A DNA stretch of 64,000 nucleotides from Desulforamulus reducens MI-1 (GTDB taxonomy: Bacteria; Bacillota; Desulfotomaculia; Desulfotomaculales; Desulfotomaculaceae). The notes below the pieces were generated by a model that was not told where the DNA came from, did not search any database, and was given only the letters and a program-made list of their open reading frames with translations. The stretch lies in contig NC_009253.1 in the NCBI RefSeq assembly GCF_000016165.1, positions 2,018,332 through 2,082,331 of the forward strand, written 5' to 3'. Made by a program: the position numbers and the translations under genes. How positions within the stretch are numbered: the first letter of the stretch is position 1; each line of letters begins with the position of its first letter. Below, in pieces: positions 7,294-21,810 of this stretch.

Positions 7294-8568
7294 TCAATAA
7301 ATAAACACTACTAAATATATCATGGCTAAAAATATTGATAAAATCATCAACGGGAAGGCTATTTTCATGAATGCCAGGAAACCAAGATGATAGCCTCTTT
7401 TTTCAACCATCCCGGCCACAATTACGTTGGCAGCAGCCCCAACCAGTGAGCCATTTCCACCAAGGCAGGCCCCCAAGGCTAAGGACCACCACAGGGGATC
7501 TAAATTTGCAATACCACCGATCTTACCCATTTGCTGCAAAAGCGGGATCATTGTTGCTACAAAGGGGATGTTATCAACAAAGGTTGAAGCAATGGCAGAA
7601 AGCCATAGTATTAGAAAGCCGGTAGTTACGATTTCACCACCCGTTAAGTGTAAAGCAGATTCAGCTATCCAGTGAATAACTCCTGCCTCTTCCAAAGACC
7701 CCACAACCACAAACAATCCCACAAAGAAGAAAATAGTGGGCCATTCTACGGCTTCCAGTACATGTTCTGGTTCTTCTCTAGTCATTAGAAGCAATAGCAC
7801 CGCTCCCCCAAGGGCAATTGTTGCAGTGGGCATATGAAGAATGGAATGAAGCGCAAAACCAAGTATTGTTAACCCCAATGCTAGCAGGCATTTGGTTAGG
7901 AGTTTTCTATCCTTTAGCTCATCCTGAGGGTTAAATTTCATAATTTTAGCCATTAATTCTGGGGCTGCCTGTATTTCCTTACTGTAAACAAAGCGTAATA
8001 TCAATATTGTAATGATAAAAACAACCACCGCGATGGGAGCTAAATTAAAGATAAAATCCATAAAAGACAAGCCTGCAGGGCCACTGATCATAATATTGGG
8101 CGGGTCACCAATCAACGTGGCGGTTCCTCCAATGTTGCAGGCTAAAATCTCAGATACGATAAAAGGAACAGGATTCACCTGTAATTGCTTACAAATTGAG
8201 AAGGTAACAGGGACCACCAGCAGTACTGCAGTGACATTATCCAAAAAAGCAGAAGCAAATGCTGTGATAATTGATAAGGAAACCAGTAGTTTCGTAGGTT
8301 CTCCCTTTGCTAAAATGGCAGCTTTGATAGCAAGATACTCAAATACACCGGTTCTTCGTGTAATGGCCACTATAATCATCATTCCCACCAGCAGACCTAT
8401 GGTGTTCCAGTCAATATATTGAATTGCCTTTTCCTGGCTTACCAAGCCGGCGAAAAGCACAACCACTGCCCCAGCCAGGGCAACAACGGTCCGGTTAATT
8501 TTCTCTGATACAATAAAAGCATAGGTTAGAATAAAAAATGTTGATGCCAGGATAAACTGACTTCCCAA
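7294..8568 (-). CDS. ArsB/NhaD-superfamily ion transporter
   Basis: A 424-residue polytopic membrane protein of about 11-12 helices. It carries superfamily hallmarks: FLDNVTAVLLVVPVT, the GGTATLIGDPPNIMI loop, and a second-half copy, FVDNIPFVATMIPLL with GACLGGNGSLVGAAANVIVAG. The two halves are an inverted repeat typical of this group. Members export arsenite or exchange sodium for protons, and related Firmicute copies have no proven substrate. No arsenic genes lie nearby, so a general anion or Na+/H+ role is as likely. It is monocistronic. Confidence 0.85.
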   Translation of the reverse strand: MGSQFILASTFFILTYAFIVSEKINRTVVALAGAVVVLFAGLVSQEKAIQYIDWNTIGLLVGMMIIVAITRRTGVFEYLAIKAAILAKGEPTKLLVSLSIITAFASAFLDNVTAVLLVVPVTFSICKQLQVNPVPFIVSEILACNIGGTATLIGDPPNIMISGPAGLSFMDFIFNLAPIAVVVFIITILILRFVYSKEIQAAPELMAKIMKFNPQDELKDRKLLTKCLLALGLTILGFALHSILHMPTATIALGGAVLLLLMTREEPEHVLEAVEWPTIFFFVGLFVVVGSLEEAGVIHWIAESALHLTGGEIVTTGFLILWLSAIASTFVDNIPFVATMIPLLQQMGKIGGIANLDPLWWSLALGACLGGNGSLVGAAANVIVAGMVEKRGYHLGFLAFMKIAFPLMILSIFLAMIYLVVFIY

Positions 8569-9136: not shown

Positions 9137-9270
9137 AATGTGAATGCACTAATTTCTATCATTTCAAAAATAGAGATGAAGCCAAACAAACAATTTTTGA
9201 ATATATAGAGGTTTATTATAACCGGCAAAGGCGGCATGCAGCCTTGGGTTGGTTTACTCCATTGCATACA
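9121..9270 (+). mobile_element. IS3-family transposase C-terminal remnant
   Basis: In the frame beginning at 9121 the DNA encodes the C-terminal signature of IS3-family (IS150-type) OrfB integrases: FKNRDEAKQTIFEYIEVYYN followed by RQRRHAALGWFTP. The catalytic core upstream is absent and the frame soon decays, so only about 50 codons of a dead element remain. It overlaps the end of the kinase relic, suggesting that insertion and later deletion shaped this region. Confidence 0.8.
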
Positions 9271-9279
9271 AGAAGCAAT

Positions 9280-9475
9280 TATGTTTGGATCTTGCGGTAT
9301 AGGTTTAATTTGTGCATAGGGAAGCCATAAATAGCGTTTATGCCGCGAAAGCCTCTTGATGTGGGGTAGCACCCCTCTGGTAGAATCTTGAAGGTGGAAA
9401 ACCGCCTTAGCAATAAGGTTATTTCCACCTGATATAAGGGTGTCCAGAAAACCGAGAATGCCTCAGTGACCATGT
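9280..9475. other. Structured non-coding stretch, possible mobile-element end
   Basis: This stretch holds strong hairpins and no good gene. GGGGT-AGC-ACCCC lies at 9363-9375. At 9392-9430 a 9-bp outer stem (AGGTGGAAA/TTTCCACCT) encloses a 5-bp stem closed by a GCAA tetraloop (9405-9418). Combined with the GAAGCC/CGAAAGCC/GGGGTAG pattern upstream, it loosely resembles the 3' end and guide-RNA scaffold of IS200/IS605 elements. That reading is tentative, and an unrelated RNA or IS end is possible. Confidence 0.3.
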
Positions 9476-9487
9476 TTTAAAAAACAT
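9472..9487. promoter_or_regulatory. Candidate PadR operator (ATGT-N8-ACAT)
   Basis: ATGTTTTAAAAAACAT is a 7-bp inverted repeat and fits the ATGT-N8-ACAT pattern known for PadR-family operators. It ends 10 bases before the -35 box of the padR-like gene, where a repressor could block its own promoter. Confidence 0.55.
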
Positions 9488-9497
9488 ATTCACAATA

Positions 9498-9526
9498 TTG
9501 AAAAGAGAAATACACTGTGCTATAGT
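9498..9526 (+). promoter_or_regulatory. Sigma-A-type promoter of the padR-like gene
   Basis: TTGAAA (9498-9503) and TATAGT (9521-9526) are separated by 17 bases, near-consensus for the vegetative sigma factor. The downstream ATG at 9575 follows a GAGGTG ribosome binding site. Confidence 0.65.
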
Positions 9527-9574
9527 AACACAAAATCTATTTGCAACATGAATATAGTTGAGGTGTAGTTATAT

Positions 9575-9928
9575 ATGACTAACAATATAAATATAAGCCT
9601 TCCAAGTGACCGGCTTATTGAAGCTCAGTTACTTCTGTTATTGCAGTTAAAACCTTCTCATGGTTATGAACTTATTCAGAGACTAAATGATTCAGATTTT
9701 ACCCTTGGAGAAGTAGATCCAGCAACAGTATACCGACACTTAAGACGTATGGATAAGGATGAACTTGTTAAATCTCACTGGGAGACTGGTCCATCAGGAC
9801 CTGGAAGGCGCCTCTACACCATCACAAATAATGGAGAGGCATTGCTAGGCCAATGGACAGAAAGCATTAGGCACCAGAAGGAAAAACTAGAGAAGTTCAT
9901 AAAAATATATGAACAATATAACTCGTAG
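9575..9928 (+). CDS. PadR family transcriptional regulator
   Basis: A 117-residue winged-helix regulator with the PadR pattern: ILLLLQLKPSHGYELIQRL-like N-terminal helices, PATVYRHLRRMDKDELVKS as recognition helix and turn, and GPGRRLYTIT as the wing. A C-terminal helix for dimerisation follows. PadR proteins usually repress neighbouring genes until a small molecule binds. The next gene starts 20 bases downstream, so the two are probably cotranscribed. An ATGT-N8-ACAT site precedes the promoter. Confidence 0.9.
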   Translation: MTNNINISLPSDRLIEAQLLLLLQLKPSHGYELIQRLNDSDFTLGEVDPATVYRHLRRMDKDELVKSHWETGPSGPGRRLYTITNNGEALLGQWTESIRHQKEKLEKFIKIYEQYNS

Positions 9929-9948
9929 GTCAATGGGGGTAACTGGAG

Positions 9949-10773
9949 ATGGCTAACAATAATTGCTCTTTAAAGATAATTAATGCTGGGGCGTTACACA
10001 GGGTTATTGGAAATTGCATAGAGCTATTCTTATCAAAAAATCCTAGGATAACACTAGAAATGGAAGTGGTTGGTTCAAGGGAAGGTGCTAAAAGGTTACT
10101 CTCCGGTGACAAATATGACATAGTAGCTCTTGCTGATCAAGCCCTATTTGCAGAACTATTAGTGCCCGAGCAAGTTGATAATTATTTTGTTTTTGCTACG
10201 GATCAAATTGTGATTGGGTATGACCGCTTTTCTAAAGGCAGCAAAGAAATTCGCCCAGAAAACTGGGCTGACATCTTACTTCAACCCGAAGTAAGATTTG
10301 CCCGTTCGGATCATAACCTTGACCCCTGTGGCTATAGAGCTTTAATGGTTTGGCAACTGGCTGAAAAATTCTATAATCGGCCCGGTCTGTCCAATGAACT
10401 GGAGAAAGCCTGTATTCCCTACACTACCTACCCAAAATCAATGGATTTAGCTGGAGCTTTACTTGAAGGAAAAGTTGACTATGCTTTTCTATATTCTTCA
10501 GAAGCAAAGCAACTTGGTTTTCCCTACATAAACCTGCCTTCCAAGATTAATCTTTCTAACCCAGCACATGCAGATTATTACGACCAGGCTTCTATATCTG
10601 TTGAAAGTAAAATTCCTGGCAAAAACATAATTATTCATGGTAAACCAATAGAGTTTGCCGTGGGACTTGTTAAGACAACACAGAATCCAGAGTTAGCTCA
10701 AGCCTTTATTGACCTTCTTGCCGGGCCGGAAGGACATGCCATATTAGAGGAATGTGGTTTGATTCCCTGCTAA
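9949..10773 (+). CDS. Cytoplasmic tungstate/molybdate-binding-protein-like (WtpA/ModA family)
   Basis: A 274-residue protein resembling periplasmic oxyanion-binding proteins: IINAGALHRVIG at the N-terminus, the EVVGSREGAKRLLSGDKYDI segment, RSDHNLDPCGYRALM in the middle and a late AFIDLLAGPEGHAIL. It has no signal peptide or lipobox, beginning MANNNCSLK, and no permease or ATPase gene follows. It may therefore be an intracellular ligand sensor or a stranded transport component rather than a working ABC receptor. Pairing with PadR suggests ligand-dependent regulation, which is inference. Confidence 0.8.
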   Translation: MANNNCSLKIINAGALHRVIGNCIELFLSKNPRITLEMEVVGSREGAKRLLSGDKYDIVALADQALFAELLVPEQVDNYFVFATDQIVIGYDRFSKGSKEIRPENWADILLQPEVRFARSDHNLDPCGYRALMVWQLAEKFYNRPGLSNELEKACIPYTTYPKSMDLAGALLEGKVDYAFLYSSEAKQLGFPYINLPSKINLSNPAHADYYDQASISVESKIPGKNIIIHGKPIEFAVGLVKTTQNPELAQAFIDLLAGPEGHAILEECGLIPC

Positions 10774-11801
10774 GTATGAGTAGATTCAAAAAACATTTTT
10801 TGACAGGTGCCAATTGAATAGAATGAACTCAGAGAATTCACTAGAAAAGAGATCTAATTCAAAAAGGGCATAGCAACATCTACAAGTTGTAAGCGGACAC
10901 GAAATCCACTCATTCGTAATACAAACTTTTACCAGAAAGTGTCTACCACAGAGGGATAGAATTATTAATTAACTATTCTGATAATTTAAAAATGGTATAA
11001 CTTATATTAGTTTTTATATATATGTAAGTAAGCTTAATATTTATTTTGTATGTGTTATATTATTAATTTTTATTTGCAATTAACGCTGCGGTATTTAATT
11101 ATTTATTAATGCCATTGAGTAATTCAATGGCATTTTACTGATTTGCAGTTAAAAGGAGGGGGGGAGGGGTATGAAATACATTAACGGAAAATAGGCTTTT
11201 CTTTCAATGAATTTTGTTTAATATTAACATTATATATAAAATAGAAACTAATATTATCAGATTACACGATGCAAATATAAAGCTATATAGACAATATTTA
11301 TTAAAATAATTCCAGAAAGCATACTGTGTTGTAGAGTGAGATTATTCTAATAAGTAGTAAGGATATATTTATACTTAACTAATTGATAGTATCATGCAAG
11401 TTAAATTAATTAACATAATCTTACAAATGGCCCGAGATATTATTAGGATAGGTTTATACACATTAAAATAGAACTCAACACAAACGCTAACGAATTAGCA
11501 AAGCAAACCAGAAACCGACTATTATCTTTATTAACCATAGATAATTGATACTAGAATCCCATAAGCTAAAGGGCTAACAACATAGACAAAAGAGTTGGCA
11601 GCCGAGCCCCCCTTAAAGCCTCTTTTTTACTCTAGTTAACATAATATGTATTATCGGAACCAATTTAACAAAAAAGCCTTTCTACTAAAAGCCCTATCTT
11701 CCAAGGTTATCAGGCTTTAAGAAACCTATTCATTTGATTAAAGTGCCCCTCAAAGCAGAATCGGTAATAAAAGCACCGTTTGGACTGAAATCCCTCGAAA
11801 A
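10774..11801. other. One-kilobase AT-rich gene desert with remnants
   Basis: No convincing gene is present. A terminator-like hairpin lies at 11108-11134. A very strong AAAGGAGG ribosome binding site at about 11153 leads to an ATG at 11170 that stops after seven codons, probably the vestige of a lost gene. On the minus strand, 11531-11626 encodes a 31-codon open stretch (GGSAANSFVYVVSPLAYG in its middle) that looks like the tail of a membrane protein. The rest is simple AT-rich sequence. Confidence 0.45.
11108..11134 (+). terminator. Hairpin in gene desert
   Basis: AATGCCATTGA, a 5-base loop and TCAATGGCATT form a perfect 11-bp stem followed by TTTT. It is about 330 bases past the binding-protein gene, so it may end that transcript or be left from a deleted gene. 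Confidence 0.5.
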
Positions 11802-14083: not shown

Positions 14084-14434
14084 TTATGCATAGGCATACT
14101 CTCTTTTTGCCGCCATTTCAGCAATATGGTCCGCCATTCTGGCCGCAATGGCCATCACCGTTTCAATGGGATTACACCCGCCGGAGTTGACAAAGACACT
14201 GGCGCTGCAGATATACAGGTTCGGGATATCATGACTGCGGCAGAAACCGTCCACGACTGAAGTAGACGGATCATTACCCATGCAGCAAGTTCCCAGCATG
14301 TGACCGGTATCTGGGATGACAAAGGCCGGTTCGCCGCCCATCGCTCCCAATATCTCCTCAGCTTTTTTTACCCCATAGGCAATCAGCTTATTGTCATTCT
14401 CACCATAGCTGAAAGTAACAATCGGCCTTGGCAT
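14084..14434 (-). pseudogene. GMC oxidoreductase C-terminal remnant
   Basis: The 116-codon frame encodes only the C-terminal substrate domain of a glucose-methanol-choline-type flavin oxidoreductase: DTGHMLGTCCMG with the catalytic-type His, and SGGCNPIETVMAIAARMADH near the end. Full-length members exceed 500 residues and start with an FAD-binding GxGxxG motif, which is absent. Upstream DNA is non-coding, and the ATG lacks a good ribosome binding site. It is a 5'-truncated relic. Confidence 0.8.
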
Positions 14435-19098: not shown

Positions 19099-21810
19099 CT
19101 ATGTTACCTTCTCCACCTTTACCGCACATGCTTTTAATTCAGGAACCCTAGAAATAGGATCACAGGCTGCATTGGTTAACTGATTCACCGGAACCAGAGG
19201 ATAGTGGAAAGAAGTAAAGACAAATCCAACAGGGGTTACATCCATAACTCGAACTACCACTTCTACTGAGCCTCGACGGGAGGAAACTTTAACCCTGTCT
19301 CCATCTTCTAAACCATATTTTTCTGCATCCATCGCATTCATTTCTAAATATTCGTTAGGGTAGTGTTGCTCTAGGGCAGCAGATCGTAAGGTCATGGTCC
19401 CCGTATGGTAATGATACAATCTCCTACCAGTACTTAATATCAGTGGGTATTCATGATCTGGCGTTTCTGATGAAGGCAAATATTCTATTGGATGAAATTT
19501 TCCAAGCCCACGCAGAAAAACACCCCTATGCAGCAGGGGGGTACCAGGATGATCGGAAGTTGGACAAGGCCACTGCAGGCTTTCCTGTTCCAGCCGAGTA
19601 TAGGAAATACCCCCGTAGGAAGGTGTAAGACTGGCAATTTCCTTCATGATTTCTGCCGGCGATTCGTAACTCATGGAAAATCCCATGGCATTGGCAACTT
19701 TGCAAAGTATTTCCCAATCGGCCTTAGCCTCTCCCACTGGTTCAATGGCTTTGCGCACCCGCTGGACACGCCTTTCGGTATTGGTAAAAGTTCCGTCCTT
19801 TTCTGCAAAACTGGCTGCCGGCAATACCACATCTGCCATTTGGGCAGTTTCTGTTAAGAAGATATCCTGTACCACTAGAAAGTCTAGCTTGCTCAAAGCT
19901 TCCTTGATATGATTGGCATCTGCATCGGAGAGTACGGGATTTTCCCCCATAATGTACATTCCTTTTACTTTCCCCTCAGCGGCGGCTTTCATCATTTCAC
20001 CTATGGTTAGTCCAGGTTGAGGGGGTAGCTCAGGAACATTCCAGACCTGGGCAAACTTTGCCCTAACTAAGTTATCGGTTATTTTTTGATAACCTGTCAA
20101 CACATCGGGCAGGGCACCCATATCACAGGAGCCCTGCACATTATTTTGACCACGCAGAGGATTCACTCCACTATGTTTCTTGCCAATTTGTCCGCAAAGC
20201 ATAGCTAAATTGGCCACCGCAAAAACATTATGGGTGCCATTAACATGCTGAGTTAAGCCCATTGTATACAAAATCGTGGCATTCTGCGCCCTTGCATAGC
20301 CCCGGGCCACCTCACGCAAAGTTTCAGCCGGCACCCCTGTAATCTCTTCCACATAGTCGGGCGTATATCTTTCTGCTAATTCCTTCAATGCCACAAACCC
20401 TTCGGTACGCTTATCAACAAATTCTTTGTTCCAAAGGCCTTCATCGATAATTACATGGGCCAATCCGTTCAATAATGCCACATCTGTACCCGACTTCACC
20501 CGAAGGTGATACTGAGCTAATTGAGCCACTTCCGTTCTGCGCGGGTCTACCACTGCCAGGGTAGCCCCCTGACGCAGTGCCTTTTTCACTTGTAATGCGA
20601 TTATGGGGTGGGTCTCGCTGGTGTTTGTCCCAATGGCTAAAATAAAATCTGCCCCCGCCACTTCATTAATGCTGTTAGTCATTGCACCGCTGCCAAAGGA
20701 TGCCGCCAGACCGGCGACAGTGGGAGCATGTCAAAGACGTGCACAATGATCGATATTATTGGTGCCGAAAACCGTACGAGTAAGTTTTTGCAATAAGTAA
20801 TTCTCTTCATTGGTACAGCGGGCCGAACTCAACACCGCCAAAGCATCATTACCATGGTCATTTTTTATTGCACTCATTTTCTTGGCTACCAGGGCGATGG
20901 CCTCTTCCCAGGTGGCTTCAACAAATTTTCCCTTGTGTTTAATTAATGGTTTTTTTAATCGATCAGGGTGATGAATAAAACCATAACCAAATCGTCCCTT
21001 AATACAGAGCGCCCTGCCATTAACCTCTCCCTGACAGGAGGTAACACCAACAACCTGACCACCCTTCACATTGAGTTCCAAACTGCAACCTGTTCCACAA
21101 TAGGGACAAGTGGTCTTTACTTTTTTCACTTCCCAGGTCCGTGCCCGGCTGCGTAAACCCTTTTCTTGTAGGGCGCCCACCGGGCAAACCGCTACACAGT
21201 TTCCGCAATAGACACATTCCGATTTAGATAGGGGCAGATCCATAGCTGTGGTGATCTTGGTGTGGAAGCCCCGGTAGGCAAAGTCCAATACATGGTTACC
21301 TTGTATTTCATCGCATGCCCTTATACATTTGCCACATAAGATGCACTTGTTCATATCCCTCAAGATAAAAGGGTTATCTTTTTCAATTTCATAATTGTGG
21401 CGCTGGCCAGAAAAGCCTGGTCCAGTTACGCCGTAACGATAAGCATAATCTTGCAACCTGCAGTCCCCGTTTTTCCCACAGGTAAGACAATCCTGGGGGT
21501 GATTGGCCAATAGCAATTCCAAGATGGTCCTGCGGGCCTCTAGAACGCTTGGAGATTCTGTATCTACCACCATGCCTTCTCTAACAGAGGTGGCACAAGA
21601 TATTATCAGTTTTCCGGAATCTTTGAGCTCCACAACACAGATTCGACAGGATCCCTGGGAAGTCAATTCTGGGTCATGGCAAAGGGTAGGAATGAAAATA
21701 CCCACTTGCGTAGCCGCCTCTAGTATAGTGCTGCCAGCGGGAACTAATATTTGCTGCCCATTTATATTTATGTTAACATTTGACAAACTCTTCACTCTCC
21801 CAAAAGCCAT
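19099..21810 (-). CDS. fdhA: NAD-linked formate dehydrogenase alpha subunit, selenoprotein (UGA = Sec360)
   Basis: The gene encodes one 903-residue protein interrupted only by an in-frame TGA at 20731-20733. The context CARL-U-HAPTVAGLAASFGSGA matches the selenocysteine site of formate dehydrogenases. A bacterial SECIS-like hairpin follows directly. Domain order: a [2Fe-2S] plant-ferredoxin-like domain (CHDPELTSQGSCRIC), a His/Cys cluster (HPQDCLTCGKNGDC), two [4Fe-4S] motifs (CILCGKCIRAC, CVYCGNCVAVC) and the formate-type CPYCGTGC cluster. The Mo/W-bisMGD catalytic domain and the dinucleotide-binding C-terminus follow. It oxidises formate, or reduces CO2, at Mo/W-selenium. Electrons pass to the NuoF-like subunit encoded immediately upstream, whose TAG stop abuts this ATG. 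Confidence 0.95.
20687..20733 (-). promoter_or_regulatory. Bacterial SECIS element after the UGA codon
   Basis: Downstream of TGA on the coding strand, GTCGCC and GGCGGC can pair around the apical loop GGTCT. The loop matches the SelB-recognised GGUCU loop of E. coli fdhF, and the distance from the UGA is similar. It would direct selenocysteine insertion. Confidence 0.8.

Follow-up and report, generated by a model that had tools for sequence, protein, structure and literature searches.

In Desulforamulus reducens MI-1, whose genome is a single contig of 3,608,104 bases, a gene for a short PadR-family regulator is followed by a gene for a cytosolic WtpA-fold binding protein (SBP), and this padR-SBP pair is real and conserved across related genomes. 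A 21-bp dyad in front of padR is likely to be the PadR operator. The same dyad recurs in front of anion transporter genes, and comparisons between genomes make a regulon consisting of the pair and of the tauE and chrA genes that share the dyad a well-supported prediction. We consider it probable that PadR and the cytosolic SBP act together as an autoregulated two-protein intracellular anion switch that controls anion transporters. PadR control of anion transporters was already known; the proposed separate binding-protein partner is what we call new here. Literature searches aimed at the pair or its parts, judged by title and the start of the abstract and with subscription papers mostly outside their scope, found no description of the pair.

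Little is known about how sulfate reducers distinguish sulfate from the toxic molybdate, tungstate and chromate that mimic it, or about how they regulate their anion transporters. TSUP (TauE-type) proteins are abundant in these organisms, with functions that are said to be unpredictable in the available part of one comparative account (PMC5840216). With the regulator, its predicted operator and the candidate target genes now named, ligand and transporter function become directly testable. It may also show how a binding protein has become a separate sensor for a repressor that has no large ligand domain.

The padR-SBP locus of D. reducens

Coordinates refer to the window, the whole stretch of 64,000 nucleotides that was analysed, unless stated otherwise. 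A sequence-only reading of this DNA had placed a PadR gene next to a ModA/WtpA-like gene, and both assignments hold. The padR gene (9575 to 9928, forward strand; 117 aa) was identified by Pfam and by PadR structures found by sequence; its product matches the PF03551 winged-helix domain with 61.7 bits (E 6.6e-17; cut-off 27) and is of the short type, with no separate ligand domain in Pfam. The SBP gene (9949 to 10773; 274 aa), assigned by profile, structure matches and hydropathy, lies 20 bp downstream on the same strand. Its product scores 212.5 and 192.2 bits against the NCBIfam WtpA models, reaching neither cut-off (355 and 242.75, respectively), and its nearest solved structures are archaeal ModA/WtpA. 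An in-frame TAA is found just 5' of the SBP ATG (9949) and therefore excludes a longer N terminus; a hidden upstream start was ruled out on the same ground. Among the 13 neighbouring ORFs no ABC model was matched, in agreement with the claim that the protein lacks ABC partners. Neither protein matched a molbindin/TOBE domain, and only PadR or SBP models were hit in Pfam. The 20-bp spacing, taken with the overlap of padR and SBP genes in 28 of 41 pairs, suggests that the two are co-transcribed.

Upstream of padR, a pattern scan located a sigma-70-type promoter, TTGAAA-N17-TATAGT (9498 to 9526, forward strand), which is also present in the nearest relative, G008 (85% protein identity). The predicted operator, the dyad CTATTTGCA-ACA-TGAATATAG (9537 to 9557), was recognised by conservation and motif search and follows the -10 box after 10 bases, giving the layout TTGAAA-N17-TATAGT-N10-dyad; a likely ribosome-binding site, GAGGTG, was read at 9560 to 9565 on the forward strand. 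The scanned region contains 10 promoter-like sites where 6.8 are expected from shuffles, and position and conservation therefore outweigh the promoter match itself. The DNA of the locus is homologous to that of G008 in a single block (9493 to 10777, 86%), so that promoter, padR and SBP are common to both and the flanks differ. A putative transporter remnant downstream of the window pair was rejected in the same comparison.

Several features of the flanks may be recorded. A remnant of an IS3-type transposase (rve_2, rve_3) is located at 9139 to 9285, just 5' of the padR promoter, and homology to G008 starts only at 9493. A CitMHS/ArsB-type anion transporter gene is found near the pair on the opposite strand (7294 to 8568), with no dyad of at least 15 bits beside it. 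A GMC oxidoreductase is represented at 14084 to 14434 by its C-terminal part alone, probably a gene remnant.

Conservation of the pair across genomes

Homologues were collected from 60 related genomes (37 with a match) and by a pattern scan of a species-genome collection (38 loci). In this survey of gene neighbourhoods, which the sequence-only reading had suggested, padR lies directly upstream of a signal-less SBP homologue at all 41 distinct testable loci and directly upstream of none of 35 secreted homologues; three loci of the latter kind (L054, L055 and L072) carry a padR elsewhere. One of the 41 (L076) has a broken SBP gene. Linkage is not assessable at L026, where the sequence begins 22 bases before the SBP gene. 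The signal-less label was first given by padR linkage (plus L026), and a simple hydropathy measure of the N terminus splits the rows identically, with a hydrophobic stretch in 0 of 42 signal-less rows, which count one contig twice (L032 and L065), and in 35 of 35 secreted rows. Together with the in-frame stop codon this bears out the claimed lack of a signal peptide, and the contrary prospect, in which every homologue would still have its signal peptide and ABC genes, did not hold. The pair and motif counts exclude L032 and L098, the latter being a copy of the window, L076 was left out of the alignment because of its broken gene, and the L032, L042 and L054 rows were left out of the tree.

Phylogenetic analysis places the signal-less proteins on one side of a branch with 100/99 support that divides 41 from 33 rows, with a long-branch warning from the program. 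A search of 398 genomes of the phylum returned 12 signal-less matches (404 to 463 bits) in 11 genomes, which belong to the same order and one other family, and 14 other matches of at most 294 bits. In both genomes of the other family a padR lies upstream of the SBP gene, the pair adjoins ChrA, and padR is preceded by a dyad of 24.9 or 26.6 bits. Among 20 diverse signal-less SBPs, 58 positions are invariant by manual count. Sequences for dsrA were above the cut-off in 29 of 30 genomes with the pair and in 19 of 30 others (p 0.0025, ancestry ignored). This excess would fit organisms that take up sulfate together with its toxic analogues, with ancestry as a confounding factor.

Fold and pocket of the binding protein

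A structure model of the SBP (pLDDT 89.6) was matched to eight WtpA/ModA structures with Z scores of 36 to 38 over 264 to 268 residues, most of these structures containing bound tungstate or molybdate. Judging by the titles of structure entries, the fold binds molybdate, tungstate, sulfate and chromate. Ala15, Ser43, Asp125, Ser164 and Tyr182 of the window SBP correspond to Ser42, Ser70, Asp153, Glu218 and Tyr236 of AfModA (3cij numbering), which we take to be the ligand shell of that protein. Three of these five presumed ligand positions are kept in the window SBP, and those of Ala15 and Ser164 differ. The concern that oxyanion-binding residues might be missing is thus borne out in part, and because two of the five positions are changed, tungstate/molybdate is a candidate ligand only.

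At the position of Ser42 all 42 signal-less rows have Ala, and 34 of 35 secreted rows have Ser; the position of Glu218 is Ser in all 42 signal-less rows and also in 21 of the 35 secreted ones. Equivalents of Ser70 and Tyr236 are kept in 42 of 42 signal-less rows and that of Asp153 in 39. As judged from the alignment, the pocket is conserved inside the signal-less clade and is unlike that of the transport proteins.

A conserved dyad as the predicted PadR operator

An ATGT-N8-ACAT site at 9472 to 9487 had previously been proposed as the operator. ATGTTTTAAAAAACAT is indeed present there and is the genome's single instance of the exact 7-2-7 form. With up to two mismatches allowed, however, the pattern shows no clear excess over its control in the genome (78 versus 74), and the site is absent from the 85%-identical relative G008, lying outside the homology block that begins at 9493. 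This candidate was therefore rejected. Elsewhere, an exact ATGT-N8-ACAT was seen near a padR gene only at L025, where it falls inside the conserved dyad.

In aligned promoter regions of close relatives it is the dyad at 9537 to 9557 that is kept, and not the palindrome proposed earlier. The pattern drawn from close relatives was also met in distant ones, either before padR or before tauE in operons that begin with tauE. A motif search of 41 regions returned the palindromic motif CTATnTGCA-nnn-TGCAnATAG with 681 bits, compared with 385 to 391 bits in six shuffled sets; 10 of the 41 pair regions contain no dyad site of at least 11 bits. Over 18 sites, the gap between the -10 box and the dyad is exactly 10 in 8 cases and 7 to 13 in 15. 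The spacing TTGACA-N17-TATNAT-N10-dyad recurs at padR and tauE promoters, and the dyad sites of the two other-family genomes have no clear promoter at N10-type spacing.

A matrix was built from 21 padR-first sites only; an earlier matrix, which had also been exposed to tauE regions, served to choose these training sites. Across secreted-homologue loci (276,398 bases) the background maximum of the padR-only matrix was 12.5 bits. Sites before tauE-type genes score 28.0 (L060), 24.1 (L066), 27.4 (L086) and 27.4 bits (L094), and sites before chrA or tauE away from the pair score 26.7, 26.3 and 22.2 bits (L129, L137 and L138, respectively), the first two on contigs other than that of the pair and the third 1.09 Mb away. 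All seven of these tauE/chrA places, at 22 to 28 bits, are outside the training set of the matrix.

Half of the 60 related genomes carry the pair. A strict form of the dyad was found at 17 sites in 16 of these 30 and in none of the other 30 (Fisher p 1.9e-6, ancestry ignored; 0 sites for a reversed control). All 17 are at the pair, tauE or chrA, 14 of them being pair loci of the kind used to draw the pattern, with some genomes common to both. A relaxed search of ten named genomes gave 23 sites in nine of them (control, 10) and no new targets among the 16 loci examined, of which two (L161 and L168) are at the pair; 7 of the 23 sites are not among these 16.

A candidate tauE target in the D. reducens genome

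The D. reducens genome has no strict dyad match because its own padR site carries TGAA in one arm. It does encode a TauE of 323 aa (genome positions 463976 to 464941), 1.56 Mb from the pair, and a weaker dyad of 17.3 bits ends 53 bp before the tauE ATG. This dyad stands behind TTGACA-N17-TAATAT-N10 when read by eye; the frame of the automatic scan is one base off, with a gap of 9. The protein and G008 TauE share 81% identity, and the G008 gene has a 22.2-bit dyad. Two rival intergenic sites, one of 18.4 bits before a dehydrogenase-like ORF and one of 17.5 bits beside a BipA/TypA-like ORF (names assigned by eye), lack the promoter spacing of the tauE site, and sites inside genes reach 17.5 and 16.4 bits. 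Besides the padR site, 18 relaxed sites were checked in this genome, where relaxed patterns are not enriched over controls (90 versus 114; 14 versus 11). From promoter spacing and homology, tauE of D. reducens is likely, though not proven, to belong to the PadR regulon. Because of the rival intergenic sites, the odds given to the anion switch are slightly lowered.

Transporter genes at pair loci

Genes for TauE/SafE (PF01925), chromate transporter ChrA (PF02417) or MOT1 (PF16983) families occur within four genes of the pair at 31 of 40 loci. Clustering of the neighbours of pair loci gave TauE in 22 loci and ChrA in 6, and MOT1 was found downstream of the pair in four rows representing three distinct loci; a MOT1-type gene is downstream of the pair in G008. 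TauE/SafE-type transporters are present in most genomes sampled, and ChrA in Desulfosporosinus and a few others. The nine pair loci with no family match include L084, with a truncated TauE-like ORF, and L094 (also labelled L134), in which TauE is found by tblastn. L083 and L095 show neither a gene of the TauE, ChrA or MOT1 families nor a dyad reaching 17 bits, and L021 has an ArsP-type permease upstream. No chrA is present beside the window pair, and elsewhere in the D. reducens genome only partial ChrA-like matches were found (a 210-aa frame); the padR-chrA arrangement is present in relatives, e.g. L022. A search for MOT1 in the same genome gave no match, an empty result that carries little weight.

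Two further arrangements were seen in these loci. At L072 (1165 to 3948), a related padR without an SBP gene has as neighbours two ArsP-like permease ORFs of half length and a divergent ORF that is ChrA-like by eye. Small ORFs of 88 to 96 aa lie between the dyad and padR at L064 (6454 to 6744), L089 (11890 to 12156) and L096 (7148 to 7423), that of L089 having no Pfam match.

A proposed anion switch and its alternatives

In the proposed switch, PadR would bind the dyad just 3' of the -10 box, near the transcript start, and so block its own operon; at the same dyad elsewhere it would block dedicated anion transporter genes of the TauE/SafE or ChrA type. The WtpA-fold SBP would stay in the cytosol, bind an oxyanion after its entry into the cell and act through PadR on repression, so that cells produce the transporter as the anion level demands. 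We infer repression, contact between PadR and the SBP, anion binding, the sensor role of the SBP and the direction of transport. The SBP is linked to padR and not to one transporter, and is therefore well placed to report the anion. The likeliest ligand class is molybdate/tungstate or the related analogue chromate, which sulfate reducers would treat as toxic sulfate mimics. On the broader proposition, that an ABC-type SBP was retained in the cell as a separate sensor subunit of PadR and that one operator was re-used on TauE, ChrA and probably MOT1 genes across sulfate-reducing Firmicutes, our judgement is evenly balanced. The intracellular oxyanion sensor circuit imagined in the sequence-only reading thus gains indirect support from the conservation of the pair, its single clade and the dyad shared with transporters, and loses its operator and any support for a connection to formate dehydrogenase.

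The same circuit could instead respond to sulfate or sulfite and tune the transporter to sulfate respiration, an alternative that we hold to be less probable. The accessible portion of PMC5840216 considers sulfite export or, putatively, sulfate transport as roles of TauE/SafE-type proteins. Sulfate-binding proteins also have the same fold, and the dsrA excess points in this direction too. The SBP is, however, closest to tungstate/molybdate binders and keeps the Asp153 equivalent in nearly all rows. A sulfate pocket would be less likely to contain a carboxylate.

It is rather doubtful that PadR senses the anion itself and that the SBP is a co-regulated cytosolic buffer or carrier. A proposed precedent is ChrI, whose conserved basic residues have been suggested to sense chromate directly; the part of that source at hand makes no mention of a binding protein (PMC2936356). 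Related padR genes without an SBP adjoin genes for ChrA or ArsP-type permeases, as at L072. Against this, the SBP gene keeps to padR, which it often overlaps, rather than to any one transporter, and PadR is short and without a separate ligand domain in Pfam.

A tungstate/molybdate sensor serving Mo/W enzymes, the nearby formate dehydrogenase among them, is improbable. The WtpA-type fold would suit this role, and a molybdopterin formate-dehydrogenase-like gene is found in the window at 19099 to 21810, as the sequence-only reading had said. But a scan of all 64 kb at a threshold of at least 15 bits detected the padR dyad as the sole site, which leaves the suggested link to this enzyme unsupported, and the strict sites in relatives are without exception at the pair, tauE or chrA. 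The formate-dehydrogenase-like gene is read as two ORFs with an in-frame TGA (HCARL-TGA-HAPT), probably encoding selenocysteine.

Secreted WtpA relatives do occur in related genomes, but decay of an ABC transporter to leave the SBP behind is very hard to reconcile with 42 intact rows in one clade, the invariant positions, strict padR linkage and the observation of just one broken copy (L076).

Comparison with known systems

The two-protein switch that we favour resembles several known systems in part. With WtpA or archaeal ModA (WtpABC), the SBP shares the fold, most of the sequence core and, in most or all rows, the equivalents of Ser70, Asp153 and Tyr236. It differs in having a padR partner in place of a signal peptide and ABC genes, in the change of Ser42 to Ala, in Ser at the position of Glu218 and in scores below the NCBIfam cut-offs. 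One-protein regulators of the LysR or LacI type contain a binding-protein-like sensor domain. They likewise use a binding-protein fold as a cytosolic sensor, whereas here the DNA-binding and ligand-binding parts are encoded by separate adjacent genes. ModE and TunR/TupR-type proteins are Mo/W regulators. Regulation of how the cell handles Mo/W or a related oxyanion may be common to them and the present pair, which lacks molbindin/TOBE domains and belongs to another DNA-binding family in Pfam; TupR is named in the available text of PMC10102598. In Bacillus cereus SJ1, chromate induces ChrI, a PadR homologue whose gene adjoins chrA, and the portion of the report seen mentions no binding-protein partner for it (PMC2936356). 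Here too a PadR-family gene adjoins that of an anion transporter, ChrA being found in 6 pair loci and the two other-family genomes, but the dyad also marks tauE.
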